From Streptosporangium sp. NBC_01495 (GTDB lineage Bacteria > Actinomycetota > Actinomycetes > Streptosporangiales > Streptosporangiaceae), in contig NZ_CP109430.1 in the NCBI RefSeq assembly GCF_036250735.1, forward strand, positions 124,001 to 188,000: a DNA stretch of 64,000 nucleotides, written 5' to 3'. A model generated the notes under the pieces. It was not told the DNA's origin. It ran no database searches and saw only the letters and a list, made by a program, of their open reading frames with translations. Shown one piece after another: positions 43,849-64,000 of the stretch (positions are counted from its first letter, which is position 1; each line of letters opens with the position of its first letter). The position numbers were made by a program, and so were the translations under genes.

Positions 43849-44010
43849 GCGCGCCCACCGGTTACACGATCCGAGGACCTCCTGATCCGCCTCGTCGGCC
43901 CCTGTCGACGCGGCATAACCGGGCACGGTGGCGACGTCCCGCCGAGGCGGGCCGCTTCGGGTAAAAGGCCGCGAACCGGCGAAAGTCATTCCCTCTTCAT
44001 TCATTCGAAC

Positions 44011-44373
44011 GTGGCCACATCGCTGATTTCGCGGGAATGGGCATTGGGCAGCAAAGATCGTTCCGGCTTGTCTCGATCGTTGATATGGAGGGTTTCTAAT
44101 CAAAACATTCTCGGAGGGAATTGGTATAGAGGTGGTGGCTATTTCAATTCTCACGGAGATGCGCAGGCGGTGCTCGACGCCTACCACTCGGGGGCGGCGC
44201 AGATAATGGGAATAACCAGGAGTGGGAATATCCAAATTAGGGTCACTTCCATTGTGGGCTACGACAATAATCCAGCAATGAATCGTCTCGGGGTGCCCAC
44301 GAATATTTTCATGATCAAGGGAACCAAGAGTCCGAGTGTTGTGCCGATGAACCCAAACGCGAGCGCGCCGTGA
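44011..44373 (+). CDS. orphan C-terminal domain of a polymorphic toxin
   Basis: The last 85 residues (from NILGGNWYRGGGYFNSHGDA through VLDAYHSGAAQIMG to VPTNIFMIKGTKSPSVVP) resemble the C-terminal toxin domain seen on secreted or contact-dependent polymorphic toxins. I cannot give its exact toxin class. The secretion and trafficking part is missing: the first 35 residues from the GTG at 44011 look random, and a TTG just before the domain may be the true start. Base composition is clearly lower in G/C than its neighbours. It overlaps the next frame by four bases, as toxin-immunity pairs often do. Confidence 0.6.
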   Translation: MATSLISREWALGSKDRSGLSRSLIWRVSNQNILGGNWYRGGGYFNSHGDAQAVLDAYHSGAAQIMGITRSGNIQIRVTSIVGYDNNPAMNRLGVPTNIFMIKGTKSPSVVPMNPNASAP

Positions 44374-44705
44374 TCGACGGTCAAGGGCATCGGCGCGAGA
44401 ACGAGATAACGCTTCTTGCGGTGCAAGCACTTCTTGGCCTGATTTCCAAGGATTTGATTGCCGTGGCGGTGCGTATCGAGGAGGGGCGTGTAGAACTTAT
44501 TTTCTGGGCTCATTGTCAATCGAGTGAAATTGAAAATGATGCCGAGGAAGCCGCGTTCGAGCTGGACACCCTTTTTTCCGATGATCATCCGTTGATTGAA
44601 TACGCGATCAAAATAGGCGAACCGGATCTGAAGTCAATGGGGGCTGGGGATCGCATGATCTATTGGGCGAAGGGCCGGAATGGGGATCGCGACAGTAACG
44701 GATAG
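44370..44705 (+). CDS. candidate cognate immunity protein
   Basis: A 111-residue acidic protein (VELIFWAHCQSSEIENDAEE, LFSDDHPLIEYAIKIGEPD) that starts at a GTG overlapping the toxin stop. Small acidic proteins right after a polymorphic-toxin domain are usually immunity proteins that bind and block it. No family is recognised with confidence. It shares the low G/C composition of the toxin and so arrived with it. Confidence 0.6.
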   Translation: MIDGQGHRRENEITLLAVQALLGLISKDLIAVAVRIEEGRVELIFWAHCQSSEIENDAEEAAFELDTLFSDDHPLIEYAIKIGEPDLKSMGAGDRMIYWAKGRNGDRDSNG

Positions 44706-45583
44706 ATACGGGTGCCACCGGAATACGGCGGAAACGGGCCGCGAGGGTGGATGGCTACTGGCCGGGGTACGGGTGCGGAGCCTGAGCCGGTGCGGCTCGA
44801 CCCAGGGGCGGCCAGGAGGAAGGCCTCCCAAAAGGAGTATGGACAGTCTATGGGAACAGCGGATGCCTCGAATCAAGTGAAGAGGAGGTCGGGCTTGGAT
44901 CCTCGCAGTCTCGGACAGGTGCAGGCGTGGATGGCAGACAGAGGGACTTTGATCTGCGCGCGTTTACTCTGTCCAGCATAAGCATTTACCTAGGTGATCT
45001 CGGCGACGCTCATTTCAGATAGCCGTGTTTGAAATGGGTGAGAACGGTGGCACGATAGGTGATCACGTGGGGTTTTCTGGACTGAAGAAGACTTGTGGTG
45101 ATACCTATTCCATCGAAAGCTCCACGCCCATTTCAGGGGCATCGCGATCCATCCCGATTCATGTATGCAGACGTCGCTTTGAAGGCGTCGAATCACAACT
45201 GCCCTTATTGATCTTGCTGAGATCACCTCAATGAGCCTGATGAGAGCCGATCTGTCGGCTCTCATCAGGCTCATTGAAGGTGAGCCGCCTGGTAAGGCTC
45301 GGATACCCGTCGACTTCGTGTTGTCAGCAGGAGTCGCATGTTCAAAACCGGTGGGATGCGTCCCGTCTGGCGCGGGTGCGCACTCCAGGGGTGTCCCGTA
45401 TCACGTGACCGAGGGCATGTCGCCTCCGCTTTCTCTGAGGCGTGATCGGGTGGGTGAAGGGCGTCGCTGATCGCGCGGCTGTTCCCATGCATGTGATAGT
45501 CGCATGATCCGCTTCTTGATTACGTGAACCACCCACGTCGAGACGCTTTCTGGCCGACTCGGTGTCCGGTTTCCATGCAAGCG
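44706..45583. other. A/T-richer barren stretch with short inverted repeats
   Basis: About 880 bases without a convincing gene. Its composition differs from the surroundings. Several short inverted repeats occur: CATTTCA/TGAAATG around 45008-45037, and ggtgatctc near 44993 mirrored by gagatcacc near 45220. With the long hairpin at 45228 these look like the wreck of a small mobile or MITE-like element; no transposase is visible. Confidence 0.5.
45228..45277. repeat. perfect 23-bp inverted repeat with a 4-base loop
   Basis: The left arm (45228-45250, core aatgagcctgatgagagccg) is repeated exactly in reverse complement at 45255-45277 around the loop TCTG. No U tract follows on either strand, so it is not a typical terminator. 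Both strands are open and encode the same start MSLMRAD, merely because of the symmetry. Confidence 0.95.
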
Positions 45584-45644
45584 TTGACACCTCCCTTCCG
45601 GCGCCTCATAATGAACGAGCGTTCATGAACAAGTGTTCATTATG
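45584..45644 (+). promoter_or_regulatory. promoter with overlapping double TetR-type operator
   Basis: TTGACA at 45584 is followed by 17 bases and CATAAT at 45607, a near-ideal promoter. Two palindromes, ATGAACG-AG-CGTTCAT (45611-45626) and ATGAACA-AG-TGTTCAT (45625-45640), cover the -10 box and the expected transcription start. Together they form a larger palindrome CATAATGAAC...GTTCATTATG. A repressor there would block the methyltransferase gene at 45713. Confidence 0.8.
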
Positions 45645-45712
45645 ATGATGTCGCCGTCCAGAACCGGTGAGGCCGCCCGGCGACACCCGGATGCCACCAC
45701 GGGAGGGATTCG

Positions 45713-46558
45713 ATGCTTTCCATCGTCAACACCGAGCAGGCGGAAGCGTGGAACGGTTACGAGGGCACCCACTGGGCCGATCACCAGGCCCGGTATGACG
45801 CCGTGAACAGCGGGTTCAACGGCTGCCTGCTCGCGGCGGCCGACATCGGCGACCGGGACCGCGTACTCGACGTCGGGTGCGGCAACGGGCAGCTGACACG
45901 GCTGGCCGCCCGGCGGGCGCGACTCGGAGACGCGACCGGGATCGACCTGTCGGCGCCGATGTCGCGACGGGCGCGTGCCGGTGCGGCCGACGAGGGGGTC
46001 GTCAACGTCACCTTCGAGGAGGGCGACGCCCAGGTCCACCCCTTCCCGGCCTCGCGCTTCGACGTGGCCGTGAGCCGGTTCGGGATCATGTTCTTCGCCG
46101 ATCCGGTCGCCGCGTTCGCCAACATCGGCCGCGCGCTGCGACCGGGCGGGCGCCTGGTGATCCTGTCCCTGCGGAGGATGGAGGAGAACGACCTGGGTGC
46201 CGTCTTCGCGGCGATGGCGGAGCACCTGCCGTCGAGCCCCGCCCCGGCCGGGCCCGGCGCTCCCGGACCGGAGTCGCTGGCCGACCCGGTCCGCGTCCGC
46301 GAGGTGCTCACCGGCGCGGGCTTCGAGAAGGTGACCTCCACGCCTGTCGAGGCGCCTCAGGTGTGGGGCCGGGACGCCGCCGACGCGGCCGGTTTCCTCG
46401 GAGCGTGGGGGCCCGTCCGCTTCATCCTCGACCAGGTCGACAAGGCCACCGCGGCCCGCGCCCTCGACGCGCTCACGGTGGCGCTGCGGCCCTACGAGGA
46501 GCCCGGCGCCGTACGGCTGCGCGGCGCCGCCTGGCTGACCACCGCCACCCGCCCCTGA
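45713..46558 (+). CDS. class I SAM-dependent methyltransferase (UbiE-like)
   Basis: The 281-residue enzyme has the SAM-binding motif I VLDVGCGNGQLTRL (residues 46-59), then GIDLSAPM and the later LRPGGRLVILSLR. It matches the UbiE/COQ5-like small-molecule methyltransferases. A GGGAGG precedes the ATG. It is the first gene after a TetR-type operator and is followed 306 bases later by a TetR-family gene, the probable regulator. It may detoxify or modify the ligand sensed by that repressor (inference). Confidence 0.9.
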   Translation: MLSIVNTEQAEAWNGYEGTHWADHQARYDAVNSGFNGCLLAAADIGDRDRVLDVGCGNGQLTRLAARRARLGDATGIDLSAPMSRRARAGAADEGVVNVTFEEGDAQVHPFPASRFDVAVSRFGIMFFADPVAAFANIGRALRPGGRLVILSLRRMEENDLGAVFAAMAEHLPSSPAPAGPGAPGPESLADPVRVREVLTGAGFEKVTSTPVEAPQVWGRDAADAAGFLGAWGPVRFILDQVDKATAARALDALTVALRPYEEPGAVRLRGAAWLTTATRP

Positions 46559-59461: not shown

Positions 59462-61144
59462 CTAGGGAGATTGACGATGATCACTCTGAGTGAGTGTCGT
59501 TTTGTGTAGATCCCGATGATACCTAATGAAACTGAGGTCGACACGATGCTTTGGAGTTACTCGAAGGTCGTCGATGAGTTCTCCGGTTATCTTGTCGACA
59601 ACTTGGAGGTTGTCGTCGATCGTGACTGCCCCAAGATCAAAGAGTATGCGATGATTGGGGCATAGGCATAGAATATTGTTCAATGTATCTGGGCCATTGT
59701 GAGGGATGCCTAGGCCGCGAATATGAGTAGTCTCGGCGTACCTTATCCCTCCAATCGTTTCGAGTGCTATGCCGCAGATCTGGCACTCATTGTCATACAT
59801 TTTTTTAATTCGCTCAGACAGCTGTCGATCTTGATAAATGCCGCGAGAGATTCGTTCCCATCGGTCGGGAGCAATGTGTGGCTGAGAGTGTTGATGCTCC
59901 GTGCTTGGATATTCAGTATCTGATTCGTCATTCAGGGCTTCTAGGCGAAACTGTAAAATTCTAAAGCCGTCTAAGCCGATTGTGGACCAGTGGTCGGCGA
60001 CGGTAAACAGGCCATCGTAGCTGTATCCGCTAGATGGAGAATGTTCAGTTCCTGCGTCTGCCCCACGAATTACGCGGACGGGCAATCGGCTCATTTGGCT
60101 GGAGATCAAGGCAGCATTGCCTGGATGGTTTGCCTGCTGGTCAGATACTTGCTTCTTAGTATCAGGGTCTCTACCGCCGTGACCTGTGTAAATGATGAGG
60201 TCACCGTGATCTTGATCGTCCTTGTAGCCGCCTGATATGCAGATCGATTCTGCACCGCCTGCGCTTTGAGTTCCGCAAATCCCAGCTTGCAGAGGGCGGT
60301 GAACTTTCGCGTCATGCAGTGCTTTCCGATCGGGAAATTCTGTTCCTACTTCAATGCCAGGGACAGGCCCGTAGCCGGGAGGATTTGACCCTGGAGAGAT
60401 AACGGCTCGATTATTGATGAGCTCTAAATGTCCGGCCGTGTTGCGATTGAGTATTTGCGGCAATGGCCGTGCTTTAGATTGCAGGGCTCGATGAATATGG
60501 CTAAATATCTTGTCCAGTGACAGGCGCCTTGGATGCCCCTCAATTCCGTTTTTGAAAACCTCGACAAGTTCGGCTGTGAAGCTCGTGTATAGCTCTCCAG
60601 GGGGTGCTAGGGATTTCTTTGTTTTCGAGGCCGAAGTTATTACGCATGTGCCTTCAATGTTCGCCTGGTCCGACATGTTGTTCTCGTGGCCGGACATAGC
60701 CCCAAGGGCGTATCCACTGTAACAGCAATCCAGTACGACTACTCGCCGCTTAGCATTACTGTGCACTATTGCTCGCCGGATGTGATCGTAGGCGACAGCT
60801 GTAAAAGAAACACGCCTTAAATCGCTATCCGAGTTGGTGAGCGTTAAATATAGTTCTCCAGCTTCTGAGTCAGCTAACCCGTGCCCTGCGAAATAGACAA
60901 ATAATGTATCAGTCGCTTCCCCGGCCGCCGTTACGATCGGATCAACCATCTCGGAATGCGTAGTTGGCTCCGAAATAACTTTGCAGTTTTGCGGTGGAAG
61001 TCCCCACGTTCTGTGGTCACAAAGAGACTCTTTTATGGCTGCTAGATTGTTAGCTACGGCCGGTAAGTCCGGCATATTATCGAGGCTATATTTGCTTGTT
61101 CCGATGAGGACTGCACGCGACAAGCGAGGATCGGGAAGCTTCAC
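59462..61144 (-). CDS. caspase-like protease fused to SRA (YDG) and HNH nuclease domains
   Basis: The 560-residue protein joins three domains. Residues 5-245 are a caspase-like protease with the His/Cys dyad visible: His88 in YFAGHG and Cys141 in LDCCYSG. Residues 257-405 are an SRA/YDG domain (GIEVGTEF, VHRPLQAGICG, SICISGGYKDD, PVRVIRGADAG, SYDGLF), the fold that reads 5-methyl- or hydroxymethylcytosine. Residues 450-505 are an HNH nuclease: CQIC, His474 in TTHIRGLGIP and NNILCLCPNHRILFD. SRA-HNH pairs form modification-dependent endonucleases; a caspase in front of one is not an arrangement I know. The GTG start overlaps the EACC1-like stop by four bases. Composition is far more A/T-rich than the flanks. 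A defence function is inferred. Confidence 0.9.
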   Translation of the reverse strand: MKLPDPRLSRAVLIGTSKYSLDNMPDLPAVANNLAAIKESLCDHRTWGLPPQNCKVISEPTTHSEMVDPIVTAAGEATDTLFVYFAGHGLADSEAGELYLTLTNSDSDLRRVSFTAVAYDHIRRAIVHSNAKRRVVVLDCCYSGYALGAMSGHENNMSDQANIEGTCVITSASKTKKSLAPPGELYTSFTAELVEVFKNGIEGHPRRLSLDKIFSHIHRALQSKARPLPQILNRNTAGHLELINNRAVISPGSNPPGYGPVPGIEVGTEFPDRKALHDAKVHRPLQAGICGTQSAGGAESICISGGYKDDQDHGDLIIYTGHGGRDPDTKKQVSDQQANHPGNAALISSQMSRLPVRVIRGADAGTEHSPSSGYSYDGLFTVADHWSTIGLDGFRILQFRLEALNDESDTEYPSTEHQHSQPHIAPDRWERISRGIYQDRQLSERIKKMYDNECQICGIALETIGGIRYAETTHIRGLGIPHNGPDTLNNILCLCPNHRILFDLGAVTIDDNLQVVDKITGELIDDLRVTPKHRVDLSFIRYHRDLHKTTLTQSDHRQSP

Positions 61145-61497
61145 TCGGAGTCCTCTTTGAAGGAGCGAATTATTTTCTTCACGGTTTCCTCGTCGTCGCC
61201 ATCGACAGTAATTTCAAGATCGCCATGTTTGAATGTCACCTTAGGCTTTTCTCTGCGCGTATACCGCCAAGCAAGATAAGCTAATGTGAGGTTGGCTACC
61301 TCGAAGCTATTGCTTAGAACTAGTTCGATAGCCTCTAGTGCGGTGCCCATCTCGCTTTCTTTGGGTGGGCTCCATCGCAAGGCCACTTGCGCGTGCTGCC
61401 GAATGTCTTCATCATCCCGTAGCCAATTATAAAAAGACTGTAGTTCTTTTTCCGCCTCTTCGCCGCTCATGCCTATGTGGATGGTATTTGCGGTCAT
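61141..61497 (-). CDS. EACC1-like adaptor protein
   Basis: The 118-residue protein reads IHIGMSGEEAEKELQSFYNW, LRDDEDIRQHA, PPKESEMGTALEAIELVLSN, LTLAYLAWRYTRREKPKVTF and EITVDGDDEETVKKII. This is the layout of effector-associated constant component 1: a small alpha/beta part, the EMG motif, a hydrophobic helix and a C-terminal ITVDG strand. In actinobacteria EACC1 is the fixed partner of caspase-like and other effectors in proposed ternary conflict systems. AGAGGAG precedes the ATG at 61497. It overlaps the effector gene by four bases, so the two are translated together. Confidence 0.85.
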   Translation of the reverse strand: MTANTIHIGMSGEEAEKELQSFYNWLRDDEDIRQHAQVALRWSPPKESEMGTALEAIELVLSNSFEVANLTLAYLAWRYTRREKPKVTFKHGDLEITVDGDDEETVKKIIRSFKEDSE

Positions 61498-61866
61498 GTC
61501 GTCTCCTCTTTTTTGAATTAAGGAAGTGCTGAAGTGGCACTTGTGTATGACGAGTACGAAAAGACGCCTCACGTCAGATCCTACTAAGATCACATGATAT
61601 CCGCAGATTTGTTCCGAAGTGGAGTGATGTCTGATTCGTTGCACTGGACACGGTGGCTAGTGCTGGCCTCACTTGCGCCTTTGACCAGCAGGTTTGTCCG
61701 TGCGGTCCTTGGCCTTTTGCTGTGGGCCCTCCGCCTTCGGGGATGTCGCACGACGTGTAAGCGTTCCGCTTGATCAGCCAACAGAAAAGCGACAGATGCA
61801 CTATTAAGTGGATGATGGATGCATCGCTGGGACAAACATCGCGGTTATGGCTTAGGGTGCTGGGCT
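61498..61866. other. A/T-rich divergent region between EACC1-like and helicase genes
   Basis: This 370-base stretch has no convincing gene. It must hold the divergent promoters of the EACC1 operon and the helicase. Its right half includes a short run of mixed G/C-rich sequence with no recognised repeats. Confidence 0.5.
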
Positions 61867-64000
61867 ATGAGTGATCTCACGCCTGGCGTCTACGAGCAAC
61901 TCGTCACTCACGCTCTTGGTCGACGATTGCAAGCGGTTCCAAGTGAGTTGGCGAAGGTTGTGCCTGTTGATCGCGTGGAGGCAGAGGATTATCTCGTCCG
62001 GCATATTGCCGGCCTGACGCGTCATGCGTTACGTGCAGCCAAGACCCCCGAGCAGCAGATCGACCGAGCGAATCATGTCGCTGAGGCGATCATCAGGGCG
62101 TTCCTCGACACTGAGGATGAAGGGGAACAGATAGCGCAACCCGGCCAGTTGCTCACCGAGGTACGGAAGCCATCGGGAGTGCCTGGACGGCCGGAGCCGT
62201 TGATCCGGCCTGAGACTCCGCTGTCTGCCAGTGCTCTCCTCGTGAACGGGCGGGGTCAGCCGAGCATCGGCACCGAGGTCATGCGGGAGTTCGCGACCGC
62301 CGACCGGGTCGATCTGATCTGCGCCTTCATTAAGTGGTACGGCCTGCGTCTCATCGAAGGGCCGATCAAGGAGTTCATCGCCAGAGGTGGTGAGCTCAGG
62401 GTGATCACCACGACATACATCGGGGCCACAGACAGGACCGCGCTGGATCGTCTGGTTGCTCTCGGGGCCACGGTCAAGATCTCTTACGAGACGCTCAGCA
62501 CCAGGCTTCACGCCAAAGCATGGATGTTTCACCGGAATACCGGTTTCTCGACCGCCTACGTCGGCTCATCCAACCTGTCGAAGGCCGCGCAGTTGGACGG
62601 CCTGGAGTGGAACGTGCGGCTCTCTCAGGTTGAACAGGCTCATCTGCTTTCGACGTTCACCGCTACCTTCGAGCAGTACTGGGCTGATCCGGCGTTCGAA
62701 GGCTACGATCCGGCCCGCGATGGGGCTCGGCTAACTGAGGCGCTCAGGCGCGAAGGCGGGTCGACCCCGGCTGAGCTTCCTTTGGAGATCGCCACGCTGG
62801 ATGTACTCCCGCGCTGGTATCAGGCCGAGGCGCTGGAAGAGCTGGAAGCCGAGCGCGAGGTGCATGGCCGTACGCACAACTTGGTTGTCATGGCGACAGG
62901 CACTGGCAAGACCGTGGTCGCTGCCCTCGACTATCGACGGCTGGCTGCTGCGGGGAAGGCCGACAGTGTGCTGTTCGTGGCTCACCGCGAAAGCATCTTG
63001 AACCAGAGCAGGGCCACCTTCCGGCAGACGCTCCGGGATGGAGAGTTTGGAGAGAAGCTCGTCGCCGGAAACCAACCGAAGAAGTGGAGACATGTCTTCG
63101 CCTCGATTCAGTCGTTGGCCAACATCAACCTCGATGAGCTCGATCCGACCCGATTCGATATGGTGATTGTGGATGAGTTCCACCATGCGGAGGCTCCTAC
63201 ATATCGACGCCTGCTAGAGCATCTTCAGCCGCGTTACCTCCTGGGTCTGACCGCTACTCCTGAGCGAACCGACGGTATCAATGTTGGAGCGTTCTTTGAC
63301 GGGCGAATCGCCTACGAGCTGCGCCTCTGGCAGGCGCTTGAGCAGCAGCTTCTCGCCCCGTTTCACTACTTCGGCATCCACGACGAAGTGTCGCTGGCCG
63401 ACGTAGCCTGGCGCCGTGGACACTACGACGAAAAGGCCCTCAGTAACCTATACACCGGAAACCACGCCCGAGTCCGTCTCATTTTGCAAGCGGTGCAAGA
63501 TAAAATTGCCCATCCGGGCGAGATGCGCGCCCTTGGTTTCTGCGTGAGCGTGCAGCACGCCAGATTCATGGCTGATCAATTCGCCAAGCACGGTATCCCC
63601 TCTCTGGCTGTAACTGGCGAAACGTCACGCGATGAGCGCCGCCACGCCGTACAGCGCTTGAGGAAACGCGAGGTCAACATACTGTTCACCGTGGATCTTT
63701 TCAACGAAGGTGTAGATATCCCAGAGGTGGAAACTGTCCTCTTTCTGCGTCCTACGGAGAGTGCCACGGTCTTTCTGCAACAGCTCGGTCGTGGTCTACG
63801 GCGTGATCCAGACAAGACATGTCTCACTGCCCTGGATTTTGTTGGACATCAGCGTGCCGAATTCCGCTTTGACCTGCGACTATCTGCGCTCACGGGAGTG
63901 CCCCGCCGTAAGCTTCCCGGAGCGTTGGCCAACCCCACGCTCCCTGCTGGATGTCACCTCCAGCTCGACAACGTAGTAACTGAGATGGTCCTCGATAACG
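61867..64000 (+). CDS. PLD-like nuclease fused to superfamily II helicase (DUF3427 type), 3' end cut by window
   Basis: The visible 711 residues contain an N-terminal region of unknown fold (1-130). A phospholipase-D-like nuclease domain follows at about 135-245, with the HKD-type motif LHAKAWMFHRN and GSSNLSKAA. The SF2 helicase has Walker A MATGTGKTVVAA at 342, DEFHH at 436-440, LLGLTATPERTDG and motif VI QQLGRGLRR at 638. The gene runs past the window end, so the DUF3427-type C-terminus is not seen. Such PLD-helicases resemble restriction and phage-defence proteins. It is divergent from the EACC1 operon. No good ribosome-binding site precedes the ATG at 61867. Confidence 0.85.
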   Translation, partial: MSDLTPGVYEQLVTHALGRRLQAVPSELAKVVPVDRVEAEDYLVRHIAGLTRHALRAAKTPEQQIDRANHVAEAIIRAFLDTEDEGEQIAQPGQLLTEVRKPSGVPGRPEPLIRPETPLSASALLVNGRGQPSIGTEVMREFATADRVDLICAFIKWYGLRLIEGPIKEFIARGGELRVITTTYIGATDRTALDRLVALGATVKISYETLSTRLHAKAWMFHRNTGFSTAYVGSSNLSKAAQLDGLEWNVRLSQVEQAHLLSTFTATFEQYWADPAFEGYDPARDGARLTEALRREGGSTPAELPLEIATLDVLPRWYQAEALEELEAEREVHGRTHNLVVMATGTGKTVVAALDYRRLAAAGKADSVLFVAHRESILNQSRATFRQTLRDGEFGEKLVAGNQPKKWRHVFASIQSLANINLDELDPTRFDMVIVDEFHHAEAPTYRRLLEHLQPRYLLGLTATPERTDGINVGAFFDGRIAYELRLWQALEQQLLAPFHYFGIHDEVSLADVAWRRGHYDEKALSNLYTGNHARVRLILQAVQDKIAHPGEMRALGFCVSVQHARFMADQFAKHGIPSLAVTGETSRDERRHAVQRLRKREVNILFTVDLFNEGVDIPEVETVLFLRPTESATVFLQQLGRGLRRDPDKTCLTALDFVGHQRAEFRFDLRLSALTGVPRRKLPGALANPTLPAGCHLQLDNVVTEMVLDN

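Follow-up and report, generated by a model that had tools for sequence, protein, structure and literature searches.

Caspase-SRA-HNH fusions with a degraded HNH active site: a possible modified-cytosine alarm in Streptosporangium and its relatives

Introduction

The locus considered here raises the question of what a protein may do that carries a caspase-like protease, an SRA domain and an HNH domain in one chain, and which of these parts senses and which acts. It lies in Streptosporangium sp. NBC_01495, in a stretch of 64,000 nucleotides (contig NZ_CP109430.1, positions 124,001-188,000), which is called the window in the following. The original prediction, made from the sequence alone, held that the SRA domain reads modified cytosine in phage DNA, that the HNH domain cuts it, and that the protease or the small partner protein EACC1 gates or escalates the response. 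SAD fusions to EACC1-caspases have been known since 2020: in the accessible parts of Kaur et al. 2020 (PMC7159879), "SAD modified DNA-binding" is one of up to 50 domains given as fusion partners of EACC1-associated caspases, and the C-terminal modules of these caspases are treated as effectors.

Domain layout of the locus

The fusion is real, with C14, SRA and HNH domains in one 560-aa open reading frame and an overlapping EACC1 gene. The features are as follows, in window coordinates:

59462..61144, minus strand: caspase-SRA-HNH fusion CDS, 560 aa, GTG start (single ORF)
60446..61117, minus strand: caspase (Peptidase C14) domain, residues 10-233 (Pfam; fold)
60881-60883 and 60722-60724, minus strand: codons of the caspase dyad, His88 and Cys141, respectively (Pfam, conservation in homologues)
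59930..60373, minus strand: SAD/SRA domain, residues 258-405 (Pfam; mapping onto TagI)
59615..59785, minus strand: HNH_2 domain, residues 454-510, predicted to be nuclease-inactive (Pfam; residue comparison)
59648..59650, minus strand: codon of Arg499, in the place of the metal-binding His254 of TagI (alignment to TagI)
61141..61497, minus strand: EACC1 gene, 118 aa, with a 4-nt overlap (GTGA) with the fusion (Pfam)
61498..61818: intergenic region between the EACC1-fusion operon and the divergent SauUSI-like gene
61819..64000, plus strand: SauUSI-like gene (PLD nuclease, SF2 helicase, DUF3427), exceeding the window with its end at about 64911 (Pfam); an alternative start is the ATG at 61867

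A domain search had been suggested along with the prediction, and Pfam indeed finds Peptidase C14, SAD/SRA, HNH_2 and EACC1. The N-terminal caspase matches NF047832 (1.5e-73), and the small partner, proposed to be EACC1, matches PF19953 (1e-24). The His88/Cys141 dyad in a single chain and the complete SRA domain were thus seen correctly, but an HNH domain with all metal and His motifs was not, as Arg499 occupies the position of TagI His254. Horizontal transfer, which had been proposed from local A/T-richness, fits the foreign composition, and a defence role fits as well. A further A/T-rich patch (GC 0.58) is found at 44001-46000 of the window.

Conservation was assessed in 79 fused proteins, which are those of at least 470 aa among the best 120 of 1045 homologues (the short rows P0075, P0080 and P0082-P0090 were omitted). 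In all 79 of them, His88 and Cys141 of the caspase are present, and so is Asp139, two residues before the catalytic Cys, which is why the protease probably cuts after a basic residue; MALT1 offers a parallel. The SRA domain is conserved just as strictly. TagI is a solved relative of the fusion (E 6e-75; the structure match aligns 276 residues with 46% identity), and its base pocket residues Tyr55, Asp58 and Tyr67 align with Tyr307, Asp310 and Tyr319, which are invariant in the same 79 proteins from the best 120 of 1045. The fusion is also the sole SRA match in each of the 23 fused genomes that were found among 345 genomes of the order. A site for self-cleavage in the linker that would be specific to SRA was considered and discarded, as the RNRA-like stretch occurs also in caspases without SRA.

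The HNH active site

According to the accessible account of TagI (PMC6212794), its HNH domain requires His229 (general base), Asn245, His254 and Asp258 (metal), and zinc is bound by Cys210, Cys213, Cys250 and Asp253. By alignment, the catalytic residues correspond to His474, Asn490, Arg499 and Asp503 of the fusion, and the zinc ligands to Cys454, Cys457, Cys495 and His498. The metal site of the window copy is thus incomplete, with Arg499 instead of the essential histidine. His474, Asn490, Asp503 and Glu471 are retained, and given these residues, the window copy may still have a weak nicking activity.

The same tendency is seen in the 79 fused proteins from the best 120 of 1045 homologues, in which His499 is present in 9, Asp503 in 17 and His474 in 61, and 35 have Lys or Arg at position 503; two of them (P0004 and P0005) have His499, but Glu503. 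The full set H474-N490-H499-D503 is found in only 4 of these 79 fused proteins, in contrast to 32 of 32 stand-alone SRA-HNH proteins (Fisher 8e-24; the stand-alone set comprises the 24 of the 30 rows P0091-P0120 that are below 400 aa, and 8 loci). Within the order (345 genomes), His499 is kept in none of the 23 fused loci, one of which (G079) has a TAG within the matched stretch, whereas the HNH set is intact in all 7 stand-alone loci that were read out of 15 found. The claim that the HNH cuts the modified DNA thus does not fit what is seen in the window copy and in most of the family.

Other parts of the domain have been kept. Asn490 and the zinc ligands Cys454, Cys457 and Cys495 are present in all 79 fused proteins from the best 120 of 1045, and His482, the counterpart of TagI His237 close to the dimer interface of the HNH domain, is found in 79/79 fused and 24/24 stand-alone proteins of that same selection. 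Since stand-alone enzymes have His482 and the zinc residues as well, this conservation shows a retained fold and not a new role. Pfam HNH_2 was precomputed for just 11 of the 79 fused proteins (from the best 120 of 1045). Judging from the residues, the fused HNH domain appears to have retained its fold and a probable dimer surface, but not its active site.

Repeated origin of the fusion

The caspase-SRA-HNH fusion arose at least two times, and active-site residues were lost in both lineages. In a tree of the SRA-HNH half, from which the active-site columns had been taken out beforehand, 62 fused rows form one clade (100/99), while the fusions of Streptomyces form a clade of their own (100/98) that is nested among stand-alone enzymes, and a tree that unites all fused rows in a single clade is rejected (AU test, p 0.00014). 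A single origin is rejected also in trees of the caspase half, both with 27 EACC1-caspases without SRA (AU p 0.0007) and with 58 of them (AU p 6e-54; 8 divergent caspases of the smaller tree omitted and the main lineage thinned to 17 rows); all three trees carry long-branch warnings, and both protein halves agree.

All four fusions with a full HNH set belong to Streptomyces, and the main lineage has none in 72 (best 120 of 1045 homologues), but it may have lost His499 once, and its 72 proteins therefore do not count as 72 events; by parsimony, there are two changes of His499 on the SRA-HNH tree. Within the Streptomyces lineage, the full set is present in 4 of 7 proteins, and the other 3 have Tyr474 in the place of the general base (same best 120 of 1045). 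Three relatives in this lineage (P0084, P0087, P0090), known from metagenome contigs of 2.0-2.8 kb, have only 404-405 aa and end just past the SRA domain. These losses suggest that HNH catalysis is dispensable after fusion. A fourth short protein (P0088, 347 aa) was dropped as an HNH-less form, as it ends out of frame within the SRA domain. When the Streptomyces fusion was used as the query across 394 genomes of the class, no Streptomyces locus came up, and a scan of the genome contigs gave one distant locus.

Two matches on Rhodococcus plasmids, taken at first for HNH-less caspase-SRA proteins, were also rejected, since their C-terminus is unrelated and without SRA by Pfam. These plasmids (L089, L090) encode an EACC1 followed by a caspase with a C-terminal module of no assigned family (Pfam on L089), close to genes for a ParB-like protein and nrdH, and thus carry a plasmid-borne EACC1 system.

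Genomic neighbours

The most constant neighbour is EACC1. In the neighbourhood survey, which had likewise been suggested with the prediction, an EACC1-like ORF is found directly upstream of 23/23 fusions, in contrast to 0/7 stand-alone SRA-HNH genes (profile built in this analysis, flanks up to 1.5 kb). EACC1 of System 4 has a TM helix with a conserved Gly patch. In the EACC1 of the window and in most of those that accompany fusions, this patch is missing and polar residues take its place, but their hydrophobicity overlaps that of other EACC1s. Because of this overlap, the absence of a membrane helix was abandoned as a mark of a subfamily. Two more EACC1 matches (L002, L004) are found elsewhere in this genome, on its second contig of 358 kb (G000:C2:46874-49548), and carry the Gly-patch segment, unlike the EACC1 of the window.

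The divergent gene next to the operon encodes a protein with PLD, SF2 helicase and DUF3427 in the same order as in SauUSI, and its HxK, Walker A and DEFH motifs are present. SauUSI recognises and shreds methylated DNA, as described in the available parts of Tumuluri et al. 2021 (PMC7913695). A SauUSI-like gene or DUF3427 lies within 4 kb of the fusion in 12 of 23 genomes, including that of the window. DUF3427 occurs in 87 of the 345 genomes of the order in about one copy each, and with 6 kb allowed on each side, the probability of a chance neighbourhood is about 3e-4 per genome. The remaining 11 of the 23 genomes have no SauUSI-like neighbour, and 10 are without any DUF3427 match. Order and strand of the two genes vary between loci. 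When the genome G304 (L039) is compared with that of the window (L035), the helicases are 88% identical, but the fusions only 51%, which indicates that the pair persisted although one of the two genes was replaced or evolved quickly.

In 20 loci of 10-20 kb, the only likely real genes that recur in more than half are those of EACC1 (20) and of the SauUSI-like protein (11; a 27-aa match in L052 dropped, the frameshifted L047 counted, and the twelfth genome, G267, outside these loci). HTH regulators recur in 10 of the 20 loci and belong to a family that is common in such genomes. ORFs antisense to the fusion in 16 loci were taken for artefacts and not for constant neighbours. In L047 (G265), the SauUSI-like gene is found in two overlapping frames and is probably broken, or there is a sequencing error. 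Of the stand-alone SRA-HNH genes, 3/15 have a DUF3427 helicase at a distance of no more than about 3 kb (G141:C51, G146:C22, G156:C51), and SauUSI-like and SRA-HNH enzymes thus pair even without a caspase.

C5-methyltransferases in host genomes

The accessible text on TagI (PMC6212794) describes toxicity towards Dcm+ cells and a host in which no C5 enzyme was found. If the fusion senses 5mC with harmful consequences, its hosts should be devoid of C5-methyltransferases as well. PF00145 was therefore searched in the 345 genomes of the order. With matches of E <= 1e-20 regarded as strong, a threshold chosen after the list had been viewed, a C5-methyltransferase is present in 2 of 23 fused genomes (G149 and G267) versus 190 of 322 others (p 2.4e-6; genus-stratified p 1.8e-4). 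At the looser threshold of 1e-3 the contrast is weaker (7/23 versus 232/322; genus-stratified p 3.6e-4).

Genomes with EACC1-caspases that are not fused to SRA have strong matches in 30 of 42 cases (33 at 1e-3), these 42 being drawn from 101 genomes with the loci read for 27 caspases; two of them (G073, G295) also hold a stand-alone SRA-HNH gene, and without these the count is 30/40. Genomes with stand-alone SRA-HNH genes have strong matches in only 2 of 15 cases (5 at 1e-3). The scarcity thus tracks the SRA domain and not other EACC1-caspases, which fits SRA as the trigger. In the fused genomes with neither DUF3427 nor a McrC-like gene, strong matches are found in 0/8, and SauUSI or McrBC alone do not explain the scarcity. 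The genome of the window has one weak, half-length PF00145 match (E 5e-7; G000:C2:135581-136099, L088) in a 408-aa ORF, and it is doubtful that this methyltransferase-like protein is active. The scarcity in fused hosts is a correlation. That the apparent incompatibility with methyltransferases persists without the nuclease site suggests a role of the protease.

Proposed mechanism and alternatives

It is reasonably likely that EACC1 and the caspase-SRA-HNH protein constitute a modified-cytosine alarm, in which a former restriction enzyme is the sensor and the protease the effector. The identity of its pocket predicts that the SRA domain recognises 5mC or 5hmC in foreign DNA. The HNH domain, being without the metal-binding His, would serve only to pair molecules and to hold the DNA. 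Modified DNA, with several sites per molecule, would gather two or more of the proteins, similar to the HNH dimer of TagI, and the caspase could then be activated by proximity, with EACC1 being either a partner and activator or a restraint of the caspase. Growth arrest or cell death would be the expected effect of the caspase. In about half of the hosts, destruction of this modified DNA would fall to the SauUSI-like enzyme, and the caspase would form a second line.

The original prediction fits in its domains, partner, foreign composition and defence role, but its model, in which the HNH domain cuts modified DNA under the control of caspase or EACC1, is unlikely. Pfam still finds HNH_2 in the window copy, which retains His474, Asn490 and Asp503, and the 4 of 7 Streptomyces fusions with all four residues (best 120 of 1045) look catalytically intact; however, the essential metal ligand of TagI is replaced by Arg499, the full set is present in 0/72 main-lineage fusions as opposed to 32/32 stand-alone proteins, and position 503 is occupied by Lys or Arg in 35 of 79 (both fused counts from the best 120 of 1045). 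The data favour SRA as the sensor and the caspase as the effector.

An arrangement in the opposite direction follows from the proposal made for EACC1 systems generally in the available text of Kaur et al. 2020 (PMC7159879): a membrane EACC1 would sense, the caspase would cut itself, and the released SRA-HNH part would be an effector that binds or blocks modified DNA. The RNRA-like stretch at the end of the caspase domain would suit such a cut, though it is shared with caspases without SRA. This reading is rather unlikely, as the supposed effector lacks catalytic residues but has an invariant ligand pocket, and as the methyltransferase scarcity accompanies SRA but is not seen with other EACC1-caspases. 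It is very improbable that the fusion is an accessory that marks modified DNA for the SauUSI-like enzyme or tunes that enzyme by proteolysis. The vicinity in 12 of 23 genomes, with DUF3427 in just 87 of 345 genomes at about one copy each, speaks for a connection, but 11 of 23 fusions are without such a neighbour, 10 without any DUF3427 match, gene order and strand vary, and the constant partner is EACC1 and not SauUSI.

Relation to known systems

Like the EACC1-caspase "System 4", as presented in the accessible parts of Kaur et al. 2020 (PMC7159879), the operon has a 5' EACC1 gene and a 3' gene of an N-terminal caspase with a variable C-terminal module. Unlike in the reading given there for System 4, the module of the fusion is a nuclease in decay, fused at least twice, whose reader pocket is intact. 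The original prediction knew of no described system with this domain order, which holds in part: SAD is on the 2020 list, but HNH is not named alongside it in the available text (PMC7159879). In Kaur et al. 2021 (PMC8195603), as far as accessible, the words SRA and YDG are absent from the main text, and in the open-access literature searched, including the available part of a paper on EVE domains (PMC7641849), no description of this fusion was found beyond Kaur 2020. The dead nuclease, the repeated origin and the SauUSI pairing were not found in the open-access literature searched, nor was an experiment on the EACC1-caspase switch or on the module as sensor versus effector.

With TagI and other ScoA3IV-type SRA-HNH endonucleases (Kisiala et al. 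2018, PMC6212794), the fusion shares the SRA-HNH order, the zinc site and the base pocket, but it differs by Arg499 in the place of His254 and by the caspase attached in front. The neighbour resembles the type IV restriction enzyme SauUSI in its domain order, as far as described in the available parts of Tumuluri et al. 2021 (PMC7913695), but is here a separate gene beside 12/23 fusions. In comparison to metacaspases and the MALT1 paracaspase (14-16% identity), the activation of the fusion would be by modified DNA.

The wider reading is evenly balanced: a restriction enzyme for modified DNA may at least twice have been made a pure sensor, with a caspase joined and the nuclease dead, yielding a methylcytosine-triggered protease as a lethal backup behind a SauUSI-type nuclease. 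As the module comes from enzymes with a known ligand (5mC/5hmC), the trigger is directly testable in dcm+ and dcm- strains. The pairing with SauUSI-like genes suggests a layered defence against modified DNA. If true, the fusion would link restriction enzymology with cell death of the caspase type, with methylation as a danger signal that is read by a protease, and would in effect be a bacterial DNA inflammasome.
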